From Elusimicrobia bacterium HGW-Elusimicrobia-2 (lineage in GTDB: Bacteria > CG03), in NCBI GenBank assembly GCA_002841685.1, contig PHAM01000035.1:1-19434 (forward strand): a stretch of 19,434 nucleotides of DNA, in the 5' to 3' direction. Below are positions 13,601-16,824 of this stretch, one piece after another (the first letter of the stretch is position 1; every line of letters begins with the position of its first letter). The notes under the pieces are model-generated. The model made no database searches. It was not told where the DNA came from and saw nothing but the letters and a program-made list of their open reading frames with translations. The translations under genes and the position numbers were made by a program.

Positions 13601-13750
13601 TGTCGGCGGCTGAACTCCTCCCACGCCGTCCGCCTCATAACCCGGATTGGTTAACAAATTTGCCGCGAAAGCGGGAACGGCGAAAAGCAGCAGCGAGAGA
13701 ACGGGAACTATCCTCATTTTCTTAGTGAGCCAATCTCCAATACTTTTCAT
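1352..13750 (-). CDS. Giant secreted FN3/lamin-tail/phospholipase-D mosaic surface protein (4132 aa)
   Basis: One open frame of 12.4 kb. Residues 1-30 are a signal peptide (MRIVPVLSLLLFAVPAFA/A). The chosen ATG at 13750 has a GGGAAG site and overlaps the upstream stop as ATGA; Met12 is an alternative start. Modules in order: carbohydrate-binding-like beta-sandwich 30-200; four FN3 203-622; second such sandwich 628-790; two FN3 791-1025; a 350-residue module at 1027-1373 and again at 1488-1835, each followed by an FN3; lamin-tail domain 1955-2125; two-HKD phospholipase-D region 2145-2465; then FN3 modules alternating with lamin-tail domains at 2722-2885, 3022-3215 and 3352-3535; two more FN3; a beta-rich part; and a secretion-type tail 4050-4132. 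Typical FN3 signatures are L.P.TTYYF and DLKWTAPGDDG. A DGVDNNGNGAVDEG loop near 2530-2545 looks metal-binding. Expected role: cell-surface or secreted phosphodiesterase, possibly a nuclease or adhesin. Substrate unknown. Domain limits are approximate. Confidence 0.85.
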   Translation of the reverse strand: MKSIGDWLTKKMRIVPVLSLLLFAVPAFAANLLTNPGYEADGVGGVQPPTSWAIYGLGAGTYATSDEQINSGSYSVKCIDDNATASYVHQSLGTGTVSGVTISDSKVYDFSAQIYDNVAGVKGYLRIFWYASGDASGTALTSPQIGIDSVDLAGWQNLGDTDIVPPAGACSCSIRLYIKDDVGSSGAIYLDDAEFIEVLEAIPPCGVSNLTAMIVSGKNDGKVDLKWTAPGDDGTSGGISGGEIKILASTYSITSANFDSIAENPYYTYLRGGATTYSTQATEHSYTMTGLYPGTTYYFAIKVKDAAGNWSSWSYAGVNTKSTAPACDLAPDIVTVSAPVPADGQLTVNWTEPSNFDVDYYIVEVSSFGTHPVGDFSSIIFSSQGYTGWNSYPSTAPLTNFNTYYYRITTYDWGDGADGLFSAVISSAYAYTNAFPCTAPPAAPTGFAGTGRSISSINWSWTDVTGEGGYILRYSTSATVIAGLSAGTTFWVETGLSVNTSNYRIIVATNTAGYSPLTSVTTSWTLANPPVNSTCTAVWSSSVTITWEVNSNPGYTHYGLSYSTYSDFSLLVTTQPANYAQTLTANTTAVTDLSGSTTYYFRVWAYNGISTMTAFDTVITTLTAGAPPSGNLLADYNYDFEDPVDFSMWTKDGTASSIVIANTSYSGSKSCKFATLTSAYSGRGIVSSTPTAAAGTQYAASAWAFVEASGGGVVTDAQLQINIRWYNSTGGLIYTDASGDITLDAFNTWQQISFSTTAPAGTVRAAVEFEAKESVDNNNNAYVDYAELMEFVPDTIPPAAINNLTAMIGTLDGEVDLKWTAPGDDGWSGGITNGTLQIKASTYPITSSNYPSVISNGYYTYSVSKSTTYTTQGTEHTYTMANLYAGTTYYFAVKVSDGDNWSSWSNSGGVNPKSSAPACDLVPTIISNFSAAPTYGAITLSWTEPTATDIEKYVFYRDSTTPYDFADEYSFEVSAPASSHIDTGLEEGVTYYYRVSTLDFGPGANGLYSVVKSSSYSSVISALIPIEGYEPSSQRGNEFVIDSTYAKQLNNLNEAFSYRFIAQNNRMLEKVYLYGYRTGSGAYYTLGIETNDAATGKPSGYYAWSGSSAIFVNTIFTTGSNWSGEIALLNSGALSVGTTYHIVVRYKENVDAANYISLYYTSSKNEKWVNGLTSNDYRTAMRGYSGAWADLQAEPVYILSYSDSSFEGNPYSVLYSATYDKIFGLQYAGEDFTLTQDEKINSLNVYIARNGSPADHLYYRLETTASVLISSGIVISSSSARTSMNEDKFYWKTGVLLSSKTLSAGDYRLYFVSTGSVDDSNCYAVNCIGHYTDPSSGAETYDGTNSVFTFSPGGGDAWYKRSYQDIGFLIVFDETPPADIDSLAAAAGKSYGTADLTWTSPGDDLNSGKLVNGSFEIRYSTSNDSFATNYFTETMAANCSPFEAQSYTVGNLQGGEVYYFAVITKDEADNSSGISNIVSQAAQSDAVFDIIGNKFAVEGSGGVYNIDAEDKKVSYRFTAQNSKTVNTIHVYMGETGSKIRFDVRLENDSNGSPGGLAWAGAENWFETDNSGNWHDIILTTPGEIVKGRTYHIVTQYREVNPGWAGLVSIDDKNKVYPRGTKPRNEEWINGILNPDRYSRYYNGSAWSDEGTYSEPVYVLEFDDGTSEGNPYYSGSSASGNAYEENRPGEKINVLTTQNINGARIYIKETGNAVDHLFYALYNISDGLEVVSGTAAYKTELTDSFQWWDVPFRSTYTLTAGKSYRFYLYSPLSLDTNNCYKISDLNTGNTGEPVFTSITFGGADTCFTKSADSGATWNNNDGKDLTYQFAYDKFPPADIDDVSAKAGPTKGSVYLSWTSPCEDNNDPSSGSVTEYEVKYATKSFGYSDWNSSFVHTVAASSIPSPYSPGSKQTMSITTGLTPGSTYYFRLRAVDDMLNFVMDVTFPQASSLAQPIQEVDHIVISEFSTGGVSSTRNEFVEIYNPLAFDVDISGYELRYASADNVQPESAWYSCTVPDGTILKPNGFYLFGSSYYDYAIPYNTKFTEAISNAGGHFCVYDSANEVMDRVRWGVLTTTTTMEGTAVSTASWVKGGSYKRNLSTPSACDTDENSADFSFAVRAQPDNFLSPAQPDETWPSFIAPAEERIEFFFTARNFSAPDIKQQLVNLIDRAASHVYMTIYTLTAPEVITALNNAADRGVIVRLIVDDYTTDSANTDIADELSDNVKWTVNDEKLNADDSYIMHDKIAVIDGNTVYTGSTNFTYGGFGPQDNNSVVLVSTALAKNYEEEFREMWSGYYKGYKKNSPVTSMTIASAEVKNYFSPQNSPVENVFPDLAASAKESVLFSIFTFTHKTLGNKFYDLHQGGIVVNGIFDRFMTANPNTSGIYGVGTGDGLDLNGKGMRVRKKSGLSGDIMHNKVMIIDQEKIVTGSTNWTPAGGKYNDENTVVITDKRLARQFVKYFKNLWSYTSDEDGTEDVEENTTAPRAISGISAYNTGTKAIALQWTKTTETDFSRYYIFVSSLPISPIKISDGVDNNGNGAVDEGNVADGNLIPETVVTNPSGTGVVVRTCGGDSLVPGTAYYFAVLQTDKSANESYCAPLSTAGPVVATTQPDTAAPAAIADLTVVSGSNYGEIILSWTASGDDGNTGIASEYDIRRATFAITSASFSAAARLSNVPLPLPSGTAESLTVQNMYPGRMYYFALKVLDESGLSSAISNTAGAFPKSQPVVINEFIYDAVGTDTGKEWIELFNYSTFSVSLQGWSVEKANSEDWSAATTLFTISDKSVSGESYFLCAQSGLGSTLGADFYLDGADEWKDSAGLNNSSKCGVRLKDNLGNIIDYVGYNWASGLAENNSPVGPATAPKSISRKTAGTDTNDNYADFEVLAAPTPTPSAGPDTNPPEKVDTLSSLTGSSAGEITLSWKAPADIANTGLKVNNNIFAGYILKFATIPVAGLGTTAWWKIAEEYIQQWPVASTDAAETQTLHLRPGTTYYFLIKTYDGSYNQNVSDFSNSCSAKALEGNVGSSIRINEIAPAQYSSDGSDWIEFYNAGSTVNIFGFEVYEAYTSTVSYMEKVEGNWTFPAGDYLVLRFNQTRNMTVPRQTGARSWELFTDNAGLVSADNVIILKDSAGGWIDAVCYADRSSSLSGTSKFREAYNGAIQAGQWSGILATGDNDAVVEKYCAPSVYLSRGRSIARDENSTDGINPEHKNWYLSKSVTRGVANPSPDISAPAQISDFSVATGINRGTVRMSWAAPGNDAAAGSAAGYVVRYGVSPITDNEGFDRASNLNVVSKEAQSDAFYWIPQASGSSEVYIAGGLNPGGTYYFVIVAEDETLNRGGLSNGVSAMASSAIGSNVRINEVVSLDAAAQDWVELYFTQSVDITDWAVYNIASGEDDEALVKTFSQVDVSTGDYLVLNLNESGTDETSAKGSNGFWDVYGDYDLKGFEGLVILRDASGNIVDFVAYSQSVAPDWDALWADAVEFNQWSPEQASVSNAVDWSAGTSAKSIARDEVSADTDDTGAASSDWYVVGYTKGSKNKVSAPYPISYISALAGSVDGEVQLSWIAPSDAAGYEVRYATYPTLITNYASEAWWNSVGAVKGFQGSVFFTASSSSTLDQGIETKVVTGLYPERDFYFCVKVQDYAGNVSSISTHASIYLSDSTPPLLEKAIPSWVRSSVSSSSDTVSIFWQPGPSDVVTYFIERKIGAEFSIPDTYTDAVSTAGTSLTLNLLKGTTYTFRISAIDYAGKTSTTTLGDAGWLKITVYCDYAFPTISALPNAAHMKGNDFKFNFTLSDSNGIQALAAVTPRMSYYRSGTAITEIVAVKPVVEGGTNFTTYSGTFTVPASFVSGGNFSYFVEYGDYASRSTRTPTINVTVSSSQTFTWAASTTPYRLTDGNALDGETSIVLGAVDGTTPSSLKITQTFIPSSADWPSFPAGTSGERVDVNVNAGMPVMCWDIDPKDADGYDMNVTFANPVSITLLYLERDGVVFSSCTATAAVESRLKAYFLDERNHIWRYIGGTQNTTVNTLAFNFPHLSRFALFAATTGEIKPVQRFLTAITPVDFASATKVIIYDPRGRKVVTLTTGSPLVWYGADRETSAAVPASQMVESGAYIYESTGAGGAKATGVIIVVK
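6356..7318 (-). other. Two-HKD phospholipase-D-fold catalytic region inside the giant protein
   Basis: Residues about 2145-2465. Two complete HKD motifs of the form H-x-K-x4-D-x6-G-S-x-N are visible: HDKIAVIDGNTVYTGSTN with H2242, K2244 and D2249, and HNKVMIIDQEKIVTGSTN with H2414, K2416 and D2421. Each half also has the strand-helix opening expected for this fold (VYMTIYTLTAPEVITAL and VLFSIFTFTHKTLGNKF). The motifs are 172 residues apart, so one polypeptide can build the shared two-histidine active site. Superfamily members include phospholipases, cardiolipin synthases and DNA/RNA phosphodiesterases. The nearby lamin-tail domains and a secreted context would fit an extracellular nuclease, but the substrate cannot be told from the motifs. 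Confidence 0.85.
8246..9289 (-). repeat. 350-residue module, copy 2, in the giant protein
   Basis: Residues about 1488-1835. It matches copy 1 (9632-10672) segment by segment: VSYRFTAQN against FSYRFIAQN, TYHIVTQYRE against TYHIVVRYKE, NEEWINGI against NEKWVNGL, SEPVYVLEF against AEPVYILSY, EGNPY in both, and AVDHLFYALY against PADHLYYRLE. Each copy itself has two similar halves that could be paired beta-sandwiches. I cannot name the family firmly; choice-of-anchor-type modules are the nearest pattern I know. Confidence 0.75.
9632..10672 (-). repeat. 350-residue module, copy 1, in the giant protein
   Basis: Residues about 1027-1373; partner of the copy at 8246-9289 and separated from it by one FN3 module (1377-1485). 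The similarity is clear in protein but strongly diverged, so the duplication is old. Aromatic and glycine positions are kept, which suggests both copies fold. Confidence 0.75.
10685..11869 (-). repeat. [beta-sandwich]-FN3-FN3 block, copy 2
   Basis: Residues about 628-1022. The second sandwich module (NLLADYNYDFEDP...) is followed by an FN3 pair that parallels residues 30-436: GEVDLKWTAPGDDGWSGG against GKVDLKWTAPGDDGTSGG, TEHTYTMANLYAGTTYYF against TEHSYTMTGLYPGTTYYF, and KSSAPACDLVP against KSTAPACDLAP. This points to duplication of a three-module unit. Confidence 0.75.
12443..13663 (-). repeat. [beta-sandwich]-FN3-FN3 block, copy 1
   Basis: Residues about 30-436, at the N-terminus right after the signal peptide. 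The opening NLLTNPGYEADG, the later SGSYSVKC strand and the AIYLDDAEF ending are typical of CBM4/9-like jelly rolls. The following two FN3 modules match those of copy 2. Confidence 0.75.
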
Positions 13751-14325
13751 CGCTTCCCTTTTTTAATCGTATGCTTGAGCTTCATCACCGCAAAGTTAAG
13801 TTCTATCGTTGTCTCGCTGCCAAAAACACTTAACCCCTCATCAAAAATTTCCGTTATCAGGCCGCCACTTTTCTGCATGAGAGATTTTTGTGTTTCCTTG
13901 TCTTTGTTTACAGAAAGTTCCTTTATATTTTTGGTAAGCTGCCGGAGCTTTGAGAATGTTTCTATAATCGCTATTGTCGTCTGCGTCGCTGCCTGACTTT
14001 TTAAAATCGTTGCCAACATATAAAGACCTTTCTCAGTAAACACTTTTGGCTTAACCCTGGTTTTGGTAAATTTTGCGGTGGAAAATTTACACCGCAAATA
14101 TTCAAGTTCGTCTTTATTGAGTTCATAAATATAGCTGACAGGAAATTTATCAGGATTGTTTTTAACGGCTTTGTTGATATCCCTTGTTTGTACTCCATAA
14201 AGTTCCGCTAAATCACTATCCAGAATCACCTTCTGCCCTTTCAAATCCATAATTCTGCTTTCAATTTTGTCAATCGGCAGGAATCTGCTCCGCCGCGGAT
14301 TCCTGATTATCTTTTTATTTTTCAA
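13747..14325 (-). CDS. ORF6N-domain DNA-binding protein (paralogue B)
   Basis: 192 residues. The ORF6N domain covers about 20-130: IESRIMDLKGQKVILDSDLA, ELYGVQTRDINKAVKNNPDKF, LNKDELEYLRCKFSTAKF, then VFTEKGLYMLATIL. The rest (KLRQLTKNIKELSVNKDKE and onward) is helical. The start is a TTG at 14325 overlapping the TGA of the preceding ORF6N gene (TTGA). Its own TGA overlaps the ATG of the giant gene (ATGA), so it sits in a tightly coupled string. ORF6N domains occur in phage antirepressor and KilA-N-type proteins and are thought to bind DNA. This copy belongs to a different subgroup from the other two here (FTEKGLYMLA instead of FTEQG-AMLS, longer tail). A regulatory role on its own string of genes is possible but unproven. 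Confidence 0.8.
   Translation of the reverse strand: MKNKKIIRNPRRSRFLPIDKIESRIMDLKGQKVILDSDLAELYGVQTRDINKAVKNNPDKFPVSYIYELNKDELEYLRCKFSTAKFTKTRVKPKVFTEKGLYMLATILKSQAATQTTIAIIETFSKLRQLTKNIKELSVNKDKETQKSLMQKSGGLITEIFDEGLSVFGSETTIELNFAVMKLKHTIKKGKR
14072..14098. repeat. 27-base palindrome inside ORF6N paralogue B
   Basis: Left arm TTTGCGGTG, right arm CACCGCAAA, with a further AAA/TTT pairing around a central A at 14085. Twelve of 13 base pairs match. It encodes LRCKFSTA and the centre is the first base of codon 81, the aligned equivalent of the palindrome centres in the two other ORF6N genes. Confidence 0.8.
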
Positions 14326-14333
14326 AATCCCAT
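14318..14333 (-). repeat. Junction repeat ATGGGATTTTGAAAAA, copy 1
   Basis: The minus strand reads ATGGGATTTTGAAAAA at the end of paralogue A: codons M-G-F-stop, with TTG overlapping TGA to start the next gene. The same 16 bases occur at 15538-15553 and 16817-16832. Confidence 0.85.
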
Positions 14334-14807
14334 TTTCCCCTTCGGTTTCACCGACGGCGGCAATAACAGCTTATTTATTACCCCGAATATCGTTTTTATC
14401 TGCGTGTCATGTTCCTCAAGTTTTTTCAACACATCTTTATGCGTCGCTAAATATTCCCGCACCTTCACAAAAGTTCGCATTATCGCGATATTAACGGATA
14501 TTGCTCTATCACTATTAAGAACGCCTGAAAGCATTGCAATGCCCTGTTCCGTGAACACATATGGGAAATATCGTCTGCCTCCTCTCTTTGAGGTCGCAAC
14601 TTGCGACCTCAAATTCTCAAATTCCTTTTTAGCCATTTGAAACATAAAATCATCGGGAAACCGCTTAATATTTCTCTTAATCTGTTCTACCAATCTTTTT
14701 GTCTCCACTCCATAGAGTTTTGCCAAATCCCTATCAAGCATAACTTTTTGCCCTCTAATAAGATAAATCTTATTGGCAATAATTTCAACAGGCACTAAAT
14801 TACTCAT
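14322..14807 (-). CDS. ORF6N-domain DNA-binding protein (paralogue A)
   Basis: 161 residues. The ORF6N domain covers about 5-115: VEIIANKIYLIRGQKVMLDR, DLAKLYGVETKRLVEQIKRN, KRFPDDFMFQMAKKEFENLR, then YVFTEQGIAMLSGVLNSDRA. A short helical region follows (HKDVLKKLEEHDTQIKTIF), and the end is LLLPPSVKPKGKMGF. The tail motif P.KPK...GF is usual in this family. The ATG at 14807 overlaps the stop of a 38-codon leader ORF, and a GGGAGG ribosome site 8 bases upstream lies in a hairpin. The stop overlaps the TTG of paralogue B. Members are phage- or mobile-element-associated putative DNA-binding proteins. The partner or target here is unknown. Confidence 0.85.
   Translation of the reverse strand: MSNLVPVEIIANKIYLIRGQKVMLDRDLAKLYGVETKRLVEQIKRNIKRFPDDFMFQMAKKEFENLRSQVATSKRGGRRYFPYVFTEQGIAMLSGVLNSDRAISVNIAIMRTFVKVREYLATHKDVLKKLEEHDTQIKTIFGVINKLLLPPSVKPKGKMGF
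14587..14613. repeat. Perfect 27-base palindrome inside ORF6N paralogue A
   Basis: Left arm TTTGAGGTCGCAA, central C at 14600, right arm TTGCGACCTCAAA: 13 of 13 pairs. It encodes LRSQVATS and the centre is the first base of codon 70. A chance perfect 13-base arm with one central base is expected about 3 in 10,000 windows of this size, assuming equal base use. Confidence 0.9.
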
Positions 14808-14920
14808 AGGGAGCGCCTCCCTGAAGCGAAGGCGGGGACGGCGAAAAGCAAAAGAAAGATTGCGATAGGAACCGTCCCTATTGCCCGCAGTTTTCCCAAT
14901 TTCTCAAAAATTCTCATCAT
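14804..14920 (-). CDS. 38-residue signal-peptide-like leader ORF upstream of ORF6N paralogue A
   Basis: ATG at 14920 (a second ATG follows at once) to TGA at 14804-14806, which overlaps the ATG of the ORF6N gene as ATGA. The peptide starts MMRIFEKLGKLRAIGTVP, then has a hydrophobic core IAIFLLLFAVPAFA and ends SGRRSL. Residues 1-32 would be a good Sec signal peptide. The core shares LLLFAVPAFA with the giant protein's signal peptide, and the DNA is nearly identical there (CTTTTCGCCGT.CCCGC.TTCGC). It may be the cut-off 5' end of a secreted-protein gene interrupted by ORF6N genes, or a true leader peptide that opens the hairpin over the next ribosome site. A 27-base repeat lies in its frame. 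I see no strong ribosome site of its own, so translation is not proven. Confidence 0.5.
   Translation of the reverse strand: MMRIFEKLGKLRAIGTVPIAIFLLLFAVPAFASGRRSL
14808..14822 (-). promoter_or_regulatory. Hairpin covering the ribosome site of ORF6N paralogue A
   Basis: The minus strand reads AGGGAG-GCG-CTCCCT directly before the ATG at 14807. The first arm and loop contain GGGAGG, a good Shine-Dalgarno sequence 8 bases from the ATG, and the second arm pairs with it. A ribosome finishing the leader ORF would melt the stem, which fits translational coupling. Seen in sequence; regulation is inferred. Confidence 0.55.
14865..14891. repeat. 27-base direct repeat, copy 1
   Basis: Exact match to 15493-15519, same orientation. 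The core ATAGGAACCGTCCCTAT is an imperfect palindrome with 7 of 8 pairs. Copies flank the hicBA pair. On the minus strand the repeat encodes LRAIGTVP within the leader ORF. AGGGACGGTTCC-type sequences are common dispersed (REP-like) repeats in several bacterial phyla, from general knowledge. Confidence 0.8.
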
Positions 14921-14944
14921 CTAAATTTTATCATCTTTGCCAAA

Positions 14945-15172
14945 TCATAATAACTTCAAAAAATCTTCCACCGTTAATCCGGATTTCCTAATAATCGAGC
15001 GCAAGGTTCCCTTTGCCAATTCTTTGTGAGCCGGAACAATTACCGTATTCGTTTTTCCCTCTTCAAGCTTTTGCAGTGCAATGTGACTGCCTGATTGCCT
15101 TACCTTTTTGAATCCCTTTTTATTCAATGCCCCTATTACTTCATCAGCGGAAATAATCGGCAATTTTACCAT
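14945..15172 (-). CDS. hicA: HicA-family mRNA interferase toxin
   Basis: 75 residues with the full HicA pattern: ISADEVIGALNKKGFKKVRQ, the catalytic histidine in SGSH (about residue 30), then NTVIVPAHKELAKGTLRSII and a final helix GLTVEDFLKLL. HicA is a small double-stranded-RNA-binding-fold ribonuclease that cuts mRNA and is held inactive by HicB. The ATG at 15172 overlaps the HicB stop by one base (TAATG), so antitoxin is made first and the toxin is translationally coupled. Length is normal for the family (about 60-85). All key residues seem intact, so an active toxin is likely. Confidence 0.92.
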   Translation of the reverse strand: MVKLPIISADEVIGALNKKGFKKVRQSGSHIALQKLEEGKTNTVIVPAHKELAKGTLRSIIRKSGLTVEDFLKLL

Positions 15173-15402
15173 TATCCGGCAACCGCAATTTCAAAAGTGC
15201 TTATCAGCGGAGGCATAGTCAGGGAAACCATATCCTTTATCTCTTCTTTTGAAGCCGTCTGAAAATATAGTTTTACCGCTTCTTTTAAATTCGCAGATGC
15301 TTCTTCAACAGTTTTCCCCTGACTTGCAATATCCAGCTCGGGACAGAGCGAAACATACCATTCCCCTTCTTTTTCAATTATCATGGAAAACTTGTAGGAC
15401 AT
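15172..15402 (-). CDS. hicB: HicB-family antitoxin, short form
   Basis: 76 residues matching the HicB partial RNase-H-like fold: FSMIIEKEGEWYVSLCPELD, IASQGKTVEEASANLKEAVK, then a tail ending STFEIAVAG. It precedes hicA and neutralises it by direct binding. A GGGAGG ribosome site at 15411-15416 lies 8 bases before the ATG at 15402. No helix-turn-helix or ribbon-helix-helix domain follows, so this short form may not repress its own promoter unaided, unlike longer HicB proteins. An extended -10 promoter lies upstream at about 15464-15472. The pair is flanked by exact 27-base direct repeats. Confidence 0.9.
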   Translation of the reverse strand: MSYKFSMIIEKEGEWYVSLCPELDIASQGKTVEEASANLKEAVKLYFQTASKEEIKDMVSLTMPPLISTFEIAVAG

Positions 15403-15463
15403 AAACCTTACCTCCCGTTGAGCTGCGCTTCTTTCACTTCAATCAAAAATTATCGCTGAATCA

Positions 15464-15472
15464 ATTATAGCA
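15464..15472 (-). promoter_or_regulatory. Extended -10 promoter for hicBA
   Basis: The minus strand reads TGC-TATAAT: a perfect -10 hexamer with the TGn extension, about 62 bases before the hicB ATG. No good -35 is seen, which an extended -10 can tolerate. Transcription would start near 15457. It lies just downstream of the second copy of the 27-base repeat. Confidence 0.55.
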
Positions 15473-15545
15473 CTTTGGCCGAAATAAAAGTAATAGGAAC
15501 CGTCCCTATTGCCCGCAGTGCTTTGATTAAATTTTGCTTTTTCAA
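15465..15545 (-). pseudogene. 26-codon leader remnant after ORF6N paralogue C
   Basis: A TTG at 15545 overlaps the ORF6N stop as TTGA, and the frame reads MKKQNLIKALRAIGTVPI then TFISAKVL and TAA. Its beginning resembles the frameshifted 5' extension of paralogue C (MKKQKK, IRTLKRIGTAPG) and part of the 38-residue leader ORF (LRAIGTVPI). I take it as a broken 5' fragment of a gene that was split by the ORF6N gene, not a working protein. The -10 hexamer of the hicBA promoter overlaps its end. Confidence 0.35.
15493..15519. repeat. 27-base direct repeat, copy 2
   Basis: Identical to 14865-14891, 628 bases away in the same direction, with the hicBA pair between. On the minus strand it again reads LRAIGTVP in the frame of a short leader ORF. 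Confidence 0.8.
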
Positions 15546-15553
15546 AATCCCAT
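15538..15553 (-). repeat. Junction repeat ATGGGATTTTGAAAAA, copy 2
   Basis: Same M-G-F-stop/TTG junction as at 14318-14333. Identity with the copy at 16817-16832 runs on through GCAAAA, giving 22 identical bases. Confidence 0.85.
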
Positions 15554-16039
15554 TTTCCCCTTCGGTTTCAACGGCGGCGGCAATAACAGCTTTTTTAATG
15601 CTTGAAAAATAACCTCTATCTTTTTATCATGCTCCCCGTATTTTCTTTCCAGAGATTCAAATTTTCTTAATAATTCGCTGTGACTGAGGGCCAATTGTTT
15701 TAACTTCGAAAACACCCGCATTATGCTGATATTGACCATTATCGCTCTTTCACTATTAAGCACGCTCGAAAGCATCGAAACGCCCTGTTCCGTAAAAACA
15801 TACGGCAAGGCGCCGCCAAAATATTTTTTGGATGGTATCGCAAAATGCGATACCACAAATCCCAGTTCCTTCTGCGTAAGCTGAATCATAAAATCTTCCG
15901 GAAATCTTTTTTTATTCCTCTTGACCTGCTCTCTCAGCCTAATCGGTTTTACACCGTACAATTTCGCAAGGTCTTTATCAAGCATTACTTTTTGTCCGCG
16001 AATCAAAAATATCTTATTCGCAATAATTTCAATAGGCAC
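15542..16039 (-). CDS. ORF6N-domain DNA-binding protein (paralogue C), probably 5'-frameshifted
   Basis: 165 codons from a GTG at 16039. The ORF6N domain covers about 1-110: PIEIIANKIFLIRGQKVMLD, KDLAKLYGVKPIRLREQVKR, KRFPEDFMIQLTQKELGFVV, YVFTEQGVSMLSSVLNSERA. A coiled-coil-like part follows (SHSELLRKFESLERKYGEHD), and the end is LLLPPPLKPKGKMGF. It is close to paralogue A through the whole length. The GTG has no convincing ribosome site. Upstream, an ATG at 16100 overlaps the HEPN stop as ATGA and begins MKKQKK; removing one A from the A10 run at 16081-16090 joins it in frame through IRTLKRIGTAPGNL to the ORF6N domain. So the natural start may be 16100, with a one-base frameshift or slippage. 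Confidence 0.8.
   Translation of the reverse strand: MPIEIIANKIFLIRGQKVMLDKDLAKLYGVKPIRLREQVKRNKKRFPEDFMIQLTQKELGFVVSHFAIPSKKYFGGALPYVFTEQGVSMLSSVLNSERAIMVNISIMRVFSKLKQLALSHSELLRKFESLERKYGEHDKKIEVIFQALKKLLLPPPLKPKGKMGF
15833..15855. repeat. 23-base palindrome inside ORF6N paralogue C
   Basis: Left arm TGGTATCGCA, spacer AAA, right arm TGCGATACCA: 10 perfect pairs. It encodes VVSHFAIP and the centre (15844) is the first base of codon 66. It shares the core TCGCA-N3-TGCGA with the palindrome of paralogue A while the flanking arms differ and pair with each other. Confidence 0.85.
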
Positions 16040-16100
16040 TAAATTACCGGGGGCGGTTCCAATTCTTTTCAGAGTTCTAATTTTTTTTTTGCTTTTTCAT
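16040..16100 (-). pseudogene. Frameshifted 5' extension of ORF6N paralogue C with A10 run
   Basis: ATG at 16100 overlaps the HEPN stop. The frame as written is ATG AAA AAG CAA AAA AAA AAT TAG, only seven codons. With nine A instead of ten it reads MKKQKKIRTLKRIGTAPGNL and enters the ORF6N frame. This could be a fixed mutation, a sequencing error, or a slippage site. Confidence 0.45.
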
Positions 16101-16489
16101 TTTTTCAAAACTCTATACACTTCTTTTCTGAATTCCTTCACTATTTCCAGCGCTTCATCCGCGAGAATTTTGTTGACAAGGAAAACTTCTTCATAGTCAA
16201 CCAGCAATCGTTTTTTTGAAAGCATGCTGAAATGCCCTGAATATTTTCTATCCACTATACCTGTTTTAACAAAATACAAAGCGAATTGATTTCCCGCCGC
16301 TTTATGGGACTTTACGACTATTCCCTTTGAAATCAGCAGAGCTTTTGCGAAATATAAAAAAACATAATACGCTTTTGACAGGGAATCCTCAAAAAATTTC
16401 TGCTTGTACAAAACTTTACAAGCCAACAAACTTTTTTCAGCTTTTTTCAAAAAATTGCTGATGTTTTGATTTTTTAATTTCGTGTCCAC
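16097..16489 (-). CDS. HEPN-domain protein (UPF0332-like), toxin of a MNT/HEPN pair
   Basis: 130 residues, all-helical HEPN layout: NISNFLKKAEKSLLACKVLY, then the family-typical SKAYYVFLYFAKALLISKG, VKSHKAAG, FALYFVKTGIVDRKYSGHFS, and KKRLLVDYEEVFLVNKILAD. Many HEPN proteins are ribonucleases with an R-x4-6-H motif. Here RKYSGH fits by spacing, but the position usually holding the motif in UPF0332 proteins reads RLLVDY with no histidine, so activity is uncertain. It overlaps the end of the nucleotidyltransferase gene by 16 bases and starts with GTG at 16489. In studied pairs the MNT partner inactivates the HEPN toxin by adding AMP to a tyrosine near the motif. Its TGA overlaps an ATG at 16100 that probably began the next gene. 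Confidence 0.8.
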   Translation of the reverse strand: MDTKLKNQNISNFLKKAEKSLLACKVLYKQKFFEDSLSKAYYVFLYFAKALLISKGIVVKSHKAAGNQFALYFVKTGIVDRKYSGHFSMLSKKRLLVDYEEVFLVNKILADEALEIVKEFRKEVYRVLKK

Positions 16490-16824
16490 AGCGCTTTACC
16501 TTCTCTTTCGATTTCCCTTAAAAAAAGAGAACCCTTCCTGTAGCAATTCTTAAATTCCCCTTCTGTGTAAGTTACGACGGATAAATCCACATAATACTTT
16601 TCAAGTATTTGCGCAATAATAGCATAAATGGCTAATTCCGCTTTCTTTCTGTTCCTCACAATTGCCAGCATATCTATATCTGAGCCTCTTTTACAGTCCC
16701 CTCTTGCTTTTGAGCCGAATAATGTCACGCTTTTGACTTCACGACCGGCTTTTTTATTTAACGCGTCTTTAAATTCATTTAACGCGGCGATCTCTTTTTT
16801 ATTAAATATTTTTTGCTTTTTCAA
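16474..16824 (-). CDS. MNT-type minimal nucleotidyltransferase, antitoxin partner of the HEPN protein
   Basis: 116 residues. The Pol-beta-like catalytic motif is intact: VTLFGSKARGDCKRGSDIDM gives GS at about 42-43 and the DxD pair about 12 residues on, and a third acidic residue is present in YYVDLSVV. Members transfer AMP onto the partner HEPN protein or act as stable antitoxins. Both active-site acid positions are kept, so enzymatic antitoxin action is plausible. The start is TTG at 16824, the only start codon early enough to include the first helix (MKKQKIFNKKEIAALNEFKD). It overlaps the TGA of the 58-codon ORF (TTGA), so coupling would be needed for efficient use. The antitoxin-first order and 16-base overlap with the HEPN gene are typical of this toxin-antitoxin family. 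Confidence 0.85.
   Translation of the reverse strand: MKKQKIFNKKEIAALNEFKDALNKKAGREVKSVTLFGSKARGDCKRGSDIDMLAIVRNRKKAELAIYAIIAQILEKYYVDLSVVTYTEGEFKNCYRKGSLFLREIEREGKALWTRN

Follow-up and report, generated by a model that had tools for sequence, protein, structure and literature searches.

An intragenic palindrome of ORF6N genes covaries with the recognition helix of the encoded protein and is likely its own operator

The stretch of DNA analysed here, 19,434 nucleotides from Elusimicrobia bacterium HGW-Elusimicrobia-2 (contig PHAM01000035.1; hereafter the window), raises the question of why three ORF6N genes should each carry a palindrome, different in sequence, at the corresponding place of their coding regions. 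The genes, all on the minus strand, are gene A (13747..14325, 192 amino acids; Pfam PF10543 E=7.3e-30), gene B (14322..14807, 161 amino acids; E=1.4e-36) and gene C (15542..16039, 165 amino acids; E=7e-32), and they score 103-125 bits against the Pfam PF10543 cut-off of 27.8. The intragenic palindromes, which a first-pass annotation had pointed out and which are all present as described, lie at 14072..14098 in gene A (12/13 pairs), at 14587..14613 in gene B (TTTGAGGTCGCAAsTTGCGACCTCAAA, 13/13 pairs) and at 15833..15855 in gene C (TGGTATCGCA-N3-TGCGATACCA, 10 paired arms around a 3-nucleotide centre), each centred on the first position of a codon (81, 70 and 66, respectively). A shared core TCGCA-N3-TGCGA had been assigned to paralogues A and C, the single error in that description; the core is real and belongs to the palindromes at 14587 and 15833, but the core of the one at 14072 differs (GGTGGAAAATTTACACC, plus strand). 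We propose that the ORF6N protein of each host gene likely uses the palindrome as its operator, reading it as a dimer of a putative winged helix-turn-helix (HTH) type, probably for autoregulation.

The palindrome is general in the family. Our sample of 299 distinct ORF6N genes was drawn from relatives of the window genome, a many-phyla genome collection and viral contigs (a query written from family knowledge yielded two viral loci only). In each gene we took the highest-scoring palindrome in the interval from 32 to 8 codons ahead of the FTE motif, the null being synonymous codons resampled from the gene's own usage. A score of at least 8 was reached by 94.6% of the genes vs 2.1% under the null, and a score of at least 12 by 48% vs 0.04%; the codon-resampling check suggested in the first-pass annotation thus came out in favor of the palindrome. 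There is one palindrome per gene, not a set of iterons, and the centres of palindromes with such scores cluster 45-54 nucleotides before the FTE codon, at a distance that differs among genes through indels. With pairs (k) numbered outward from the central base, Watson-Crick pairing holds at pairs 3-11 in 87-100% of distinct sites, and a single position shows as many as four kinds of pair (at k4, AT 107, GC 77, CG 47 and TA 4), so that the compensatory change first suspected in the arms of the window palindromes is genuine.

Perfect inverted repeats can also fold in mRNA, and an mRNA hairpin was among the explanations offered at the outset; it would steer how the ORF6N transcript is translated or degraded. 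The mispairs speak against it: at k4 the 5' base opposite U is A in 107 cases, C in 10 and G in none (G-U 0/117), and over all pairs G-U and A-C mispairs are similarly rare, with no sense-strand excess of G-U. This essential absence of G-U at the core pairs argues for double-stranded DNA over an mRNA hairpin. The third base of a Thr codon, moreover, tracks its partner both ways (ACC in 139/146 cases where the partner is G, ACT in 22/35 where it is A), and a hairpin would leave unexplained the covariation with recognition-helix residues described below; we regard it as largely refuted and highly improbable. The reading frame bears on the same point, as in a further 23 genes a site of this kind lies in a shifted frame and encodes a peptide of the VVTICDHL type, not LRSQFVTS, and most of these frame-shifted sites have a 17-bp core identical to that of the in-frame set. 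Since these genes keep the core with another peptide, it is the DNA sequence itself that is kept, and our computations show selection on the palindrome as double-stranded DNA.

What reads this DNA is suggested by covariation with the protein. We masked the site-coding segment, built a tree from the rest of the protein, ran simulations of how each base of the palindrome would evolve along that tree, and compared the mutual information of each base with every protein column. Against a null maximum of about 5-6, residue 41 reaches z 82 with pair 4 and 63 with pair 5, residue 38 reaches 42 and 26, and residue 42 reaches 25; residue 37 covaries with pairs 7 and 8 (z 39 at k7) and residue 45 with k3 (z 10.7). 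All five residues lie in a helix about 30 codons upstream of the palindrome. The resulting code is close to deterministic: at pairs 4-5, Glu41 goes with GC, Gln41 with AC, Arg41 with CG and Lys41 with CT, and at pair 3, Arg45 goes with C (266/266) and Asn45 with A (20/20). Arg with G, Asn with A and Gln with A are classical residue-base pairings. When whole clades were left out, pairs 4-5 were predicted correctly in 254/262 cases (97%), vs 49% for the majority class; among disjoint sister pairs, residue 41 and pairs 4-5 had both changed in 52 and neither in 76, with only 3 discordant (Fisher 6e-33), and no protein column outside the helix fell below p=0.001 in this sister-pair test. By computation, then, the site coevolves with the predicted recognition helix of its own gene, which lends strong support to the initial idea of an intragenic operator bound by its own product. 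The further idea that specificity varies together with the protein also stands; its source, placed at first in the segment that the palindrome encodes, appears to be mainly the upstream helix, although the loop of residues 75-80, directly after the site, may have a share in the outer pairs, as it covaries with pairs 8-13. The evidence for this loop is weaker because its codons neighbour the site.

Peptide and helix residues do covary, as would be expected under a constraint on the protein itself, with the peptide LRSQ-x-VTS packing against the recognition helix and the palindrome a by-product. The silent-site and frame-shift tests refute this and leave it next to no probability: the synonymous null abolishes the palindrome, a silent third base follows residue 41 (the Ser codon is TCG in 71/71 cases with Glu41 and TCA in 119/120 with Gln41), and the shifted-frame palindromes encode VVTICDHL yet obey the same code, 21 of the 23 being predicted by the code learned from in-frame genes alone. 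Selection on the palindrome, as opposed to amino-acid conservation, had been the first-pass interpretation, and it is borne out by the synonymous null, by the silent position in the Ser codon and by the genes with the site in another frame.

The genes of the window genome fit the code as well. Genes B and C have Glu41 with GC at k4k5, and Lys or Ile at position 37 with GG or AT at pairs 7-8 (in gene C, Ile with AT at k7k8), while gene A is of the Asn45 type, with A at k3. A fourth ORF6N gene of the same genome (L003) carries the palindrome tggtgtgccattttggcatacca at the same codon and has Arg41 with CG. In the AlphaFold model (predicted local distance difference test, pLDDT, 78.5), helices 25-32 and 36-45 form an HTH, so that residues 37-45 fall within one helix, and the site-coded stretch is a low-confidence loop followed by a strand (83-86) and long helices. 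The predicted recognition helix of gene B, placed at codons 36-45 by this model and by the covariation of residues 37, 38, 41, 42 and 45, corresponds to 14673..14702 on the minus strand; the homologous codons, by alignment, are 14158..14187 in gene A and 15917..15946 in gene C, likewise on the minus strand. Codons 75-80 of gene B (14568..14585, minus strand) adjoin the palindrome and encode a putative wing loop, assigned more tentatively from its covariation with k8-k13. Sequence search found no solved homologue and Foldseek no confident fold match; VIA structure matches were weak (Ski/Dachshund Z 6.5/5.8, CpGV Orf22 Z 6.3, and the HTHs of RacA/MerR/ParA about 5).

Taken together, these observations make it, in our judgement, very likely that the ORF6N protein binds its own gene, most probably as a dimer. 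Residues 37, 38, 41, 42 and 45 of the helix would specify base pairs 3-8 from the centre in each half-site, with the loop at 75-80 probably contacting outer pairs 8-13. Since the key pairs of the two half-sites are about 8-10 bp apart, the two helices of a dimer would enter consecutive major grooves from the same side of the DNA, an arrangement that would fit the reading of pairs 3-8 on both sides. The site is written in the codons just after the HTH, operator and reader together occupying about 130 bp and moving together under duplication or horizontal transfer, and the bound protein would most likely damp transcription through its own gene as a roadblock, whatever promoter the gene lands behind. 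The likeliest purpose, in our view, is negative autoregulation, with the operator carried along inside the coding sequence, and this fits genes that are small, mobile and often embedded in operons. Recognition of the site by its own product, which the term "autogenous operator" entails, is indicated by covariation only.

The same binding could instead tag the gene for some other act, such as self-mobilization, replication or partition of an element, or exclusion of incoming copies. The site is intragenic and not at the promoter, it always travels with the gene, and ORF6N genes are solitary, multi-copy and patchy in distribution; the oriV of repABC plasmids, too, lies within repC (PMC3155836), and some ORF6N proteins have longer C-terminal parts (about 300 amino acids). 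A tag nevertheless seems rather unlikely to us, given the single palindrome without iterons, the chromosomal location of the genes in varied contexts, and a Pfam scan of the window proteins that matched ORF6N (and, weakly, Rha) only, with no nuclease, transposase or replication domain. A homing endonuclease or mobile nuclease was rejected on the same scan. Two of the longer ORF6N proteins (L148, minus strand, and L126) have a C-terminal part that resembles, by eye only, PLD-type nucleases. The C-terminal tail of ORF6N proteins, PPxxKPKGKMGF / RRKIGF, is conserved across phyla (for example, gene B residues 149-161) and is perhaps a docking or degradation tag.

Several observations weigh against an autoregulatory operator or against its being the whole story. 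About 5% of the ORF6N genes have poor palindromes, and linkage between neighbouring codons could account for part of the covariation seen between the outer arms and residues 75-80. Within about 400 nucleotides upstream, ORF6N-type sites occur in only 23/281 genes, and their class is the gene's own in 10/27 cases vs 8.8 expected, which is not above chance; promoter operators of the gene's own class were therefore rejected. Paralogues of the same genome share identical half-sites in 11 pairs vs 12.1 expected, so they do not avoid each other's half-sites and insulation between them is not the driver. Finally, sites of the same type stand free, away from ORF6N genes, and self-binding may thus not be the only role. 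The lack of enriched promoter copies, the lack of insulation and the free-standing sites bear chiefly on the autoregulatory purpose.

The upstream and free-standing sites are of some interest in themselves. In about 8% of ORF6N genes a second palindrome of ORF6N type lies 200-400 nucleotides upstream of the one inside the gene, often directly ahead of the start codon (L046, L144, L118, L067, L072, L236 and L309); L118 combines a perfect upstream site with a decayed intragenic one. Decay within the gene is seen in L064 (ORF6N gene at about 1116-1700), where an intact TGC-type site fitting Arg41 adjoins an older, decayed one of another type, apparently the fossil of a specificity switch; in L028, too, a fresh and a decayed site lie side by side. 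Free-standing palindromes were found at L374:1196 and 5902, L382:1202, L353:1508, L370:1169 and L384:1249 (0-based centres), several of them adjoining genes that look, by eye, like toxin-antitoxin or DUF1016/YhcG families, and the pattern GGTCRCAANTTGYGACC has matches in 47/386 genomes and none when reversed as a control.

Free-standing sites in some intergenic regions, along with a site-to-FTE distance that varies by indels, might suggest that a mobile palindromic repeat has inserted itself in ORF6N genes, or that the site is a target for recombination or insertion. Palindrome B is, however, single-copy in its own genome when searched with up to 3 mismatches, by which a dispersed palindromic repeat element was rejected; between paralogues, its sequence changes along with the recognition helix, and hundreds of genes have it at the homologous position. 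We consider a mobile repeat very unlikely, and nothing observed supports the recombination or insertion target listed in the first-pass annotation.

Related families appear to share the arrangement. Bro-N genes have a palindrome in a comparable place (a score of 8 or more in 9/9 anchored genes, with a similar picture at most of the other loci), and RhuM genes have one in 85% of 47 genes vs 7% under the null. In RhuM, too, pairs 4-5 follow the counterpart of residue 41, and two pairings carry over from ORF6N (Glu with GC in 15/15, Arg with CG in 3/3); Lys goes with CT in 7/13, and Leu differs from the ORF6N code. A palindrome general in Rha was rejected, as candidates occur in only a few phage genes (L448, L452, perhaps L453 and L456) of the 17 scanned. 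On balance we lean toward the idea that ORF6N, RhuM, Bro-N and perhaps some Rha are self-addressed genes, with their own coding DNA as the main target, operator and reader joined in one portable module of about 130 bp, and a code that could be read from thousands of genomes with no need of an experiment. The RhuM gene of the window genome (L481, G000:C47:28312) apparently adjoins an open reading frame resembling a type I restriction-modification methylase.

In the window itself, the minus strand from 13747 to 16824 is an accessory cluster with all genes co-oriented, in the order nucleotidyltransferase and HEPN pair, ORF6N gene C, a small gene in the HicB position, HicA, ORF6N gene B and ORF6N gene A. 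Genes B and A overlap, and the next gene, whose start overlaps the end of gene A, encodes a secreted-looking protein of 4132 residues. Between the ORF6N genes, taggaaccgtccctattgcccgcag occurs as a direct repeat, at 14866-14890 and 15494-15520.

Bacteria and phages commonly carry ORF6N, Bro-N and RhuM genes, and each gene can now be given a predicted binding site within its own sequence. The recognition code is near-deterministic and has been tested across phyla, across reading frames and partly across families; hundreds of matched protein-DNA pairs, including the probable switch fossil in L064, offer a natural data set on the evolution of specificity and a source of dimeric DNA-binding domains whose specificity may be readable. 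The family also provides what seems a clear case of double-stranded DNA recognition constraining a coding sequence. We found no paper in the open-access full-text literature that links ORF6N to a palindrome or binding site (an absence that is not proof), and searches of that literature on RhuM, Bro-N and intragenic operators likewise turned up no account of a binding site or palindrome for these families or for Rha.

Among known systems, the closest relatives are the phage-type regulator families ORF6N, Bro-N, Rha and RhuM, reportedly set out by Iyer and colleagues in 2002: the window genes are themselves ORF6N, the palindrome of Bro-N and RhuM is comparably placed, and that of a few phage Rha may be too. 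In phage lambda, the origin (ori-lambda) lies inside the O gene and has iterons. The repABC plasmids have their oriV inside repC, which shows no repeats (PMC3155836). Both resemble the ORF6N genes in that the protein's own coding sequence contains its cis-acting DNA and carries it along; the ORF6N genes differ in having one palindrome, in being small and regulator-like, and in showing no sign of a replicon. Autogenous repressors such as I-TevI, whose site overlaps a late promoter (PMC3943268), are similar in that the DNA they recognize is located at or within the reading frame that encodes them. I-TevI is, however, one case, whereas the ORF6N site is a near-perfect palindrome about 200 nucleotides inside the gene, in the homologous place of hundreds of genes, and appears to coevolve with the helix that would read it.

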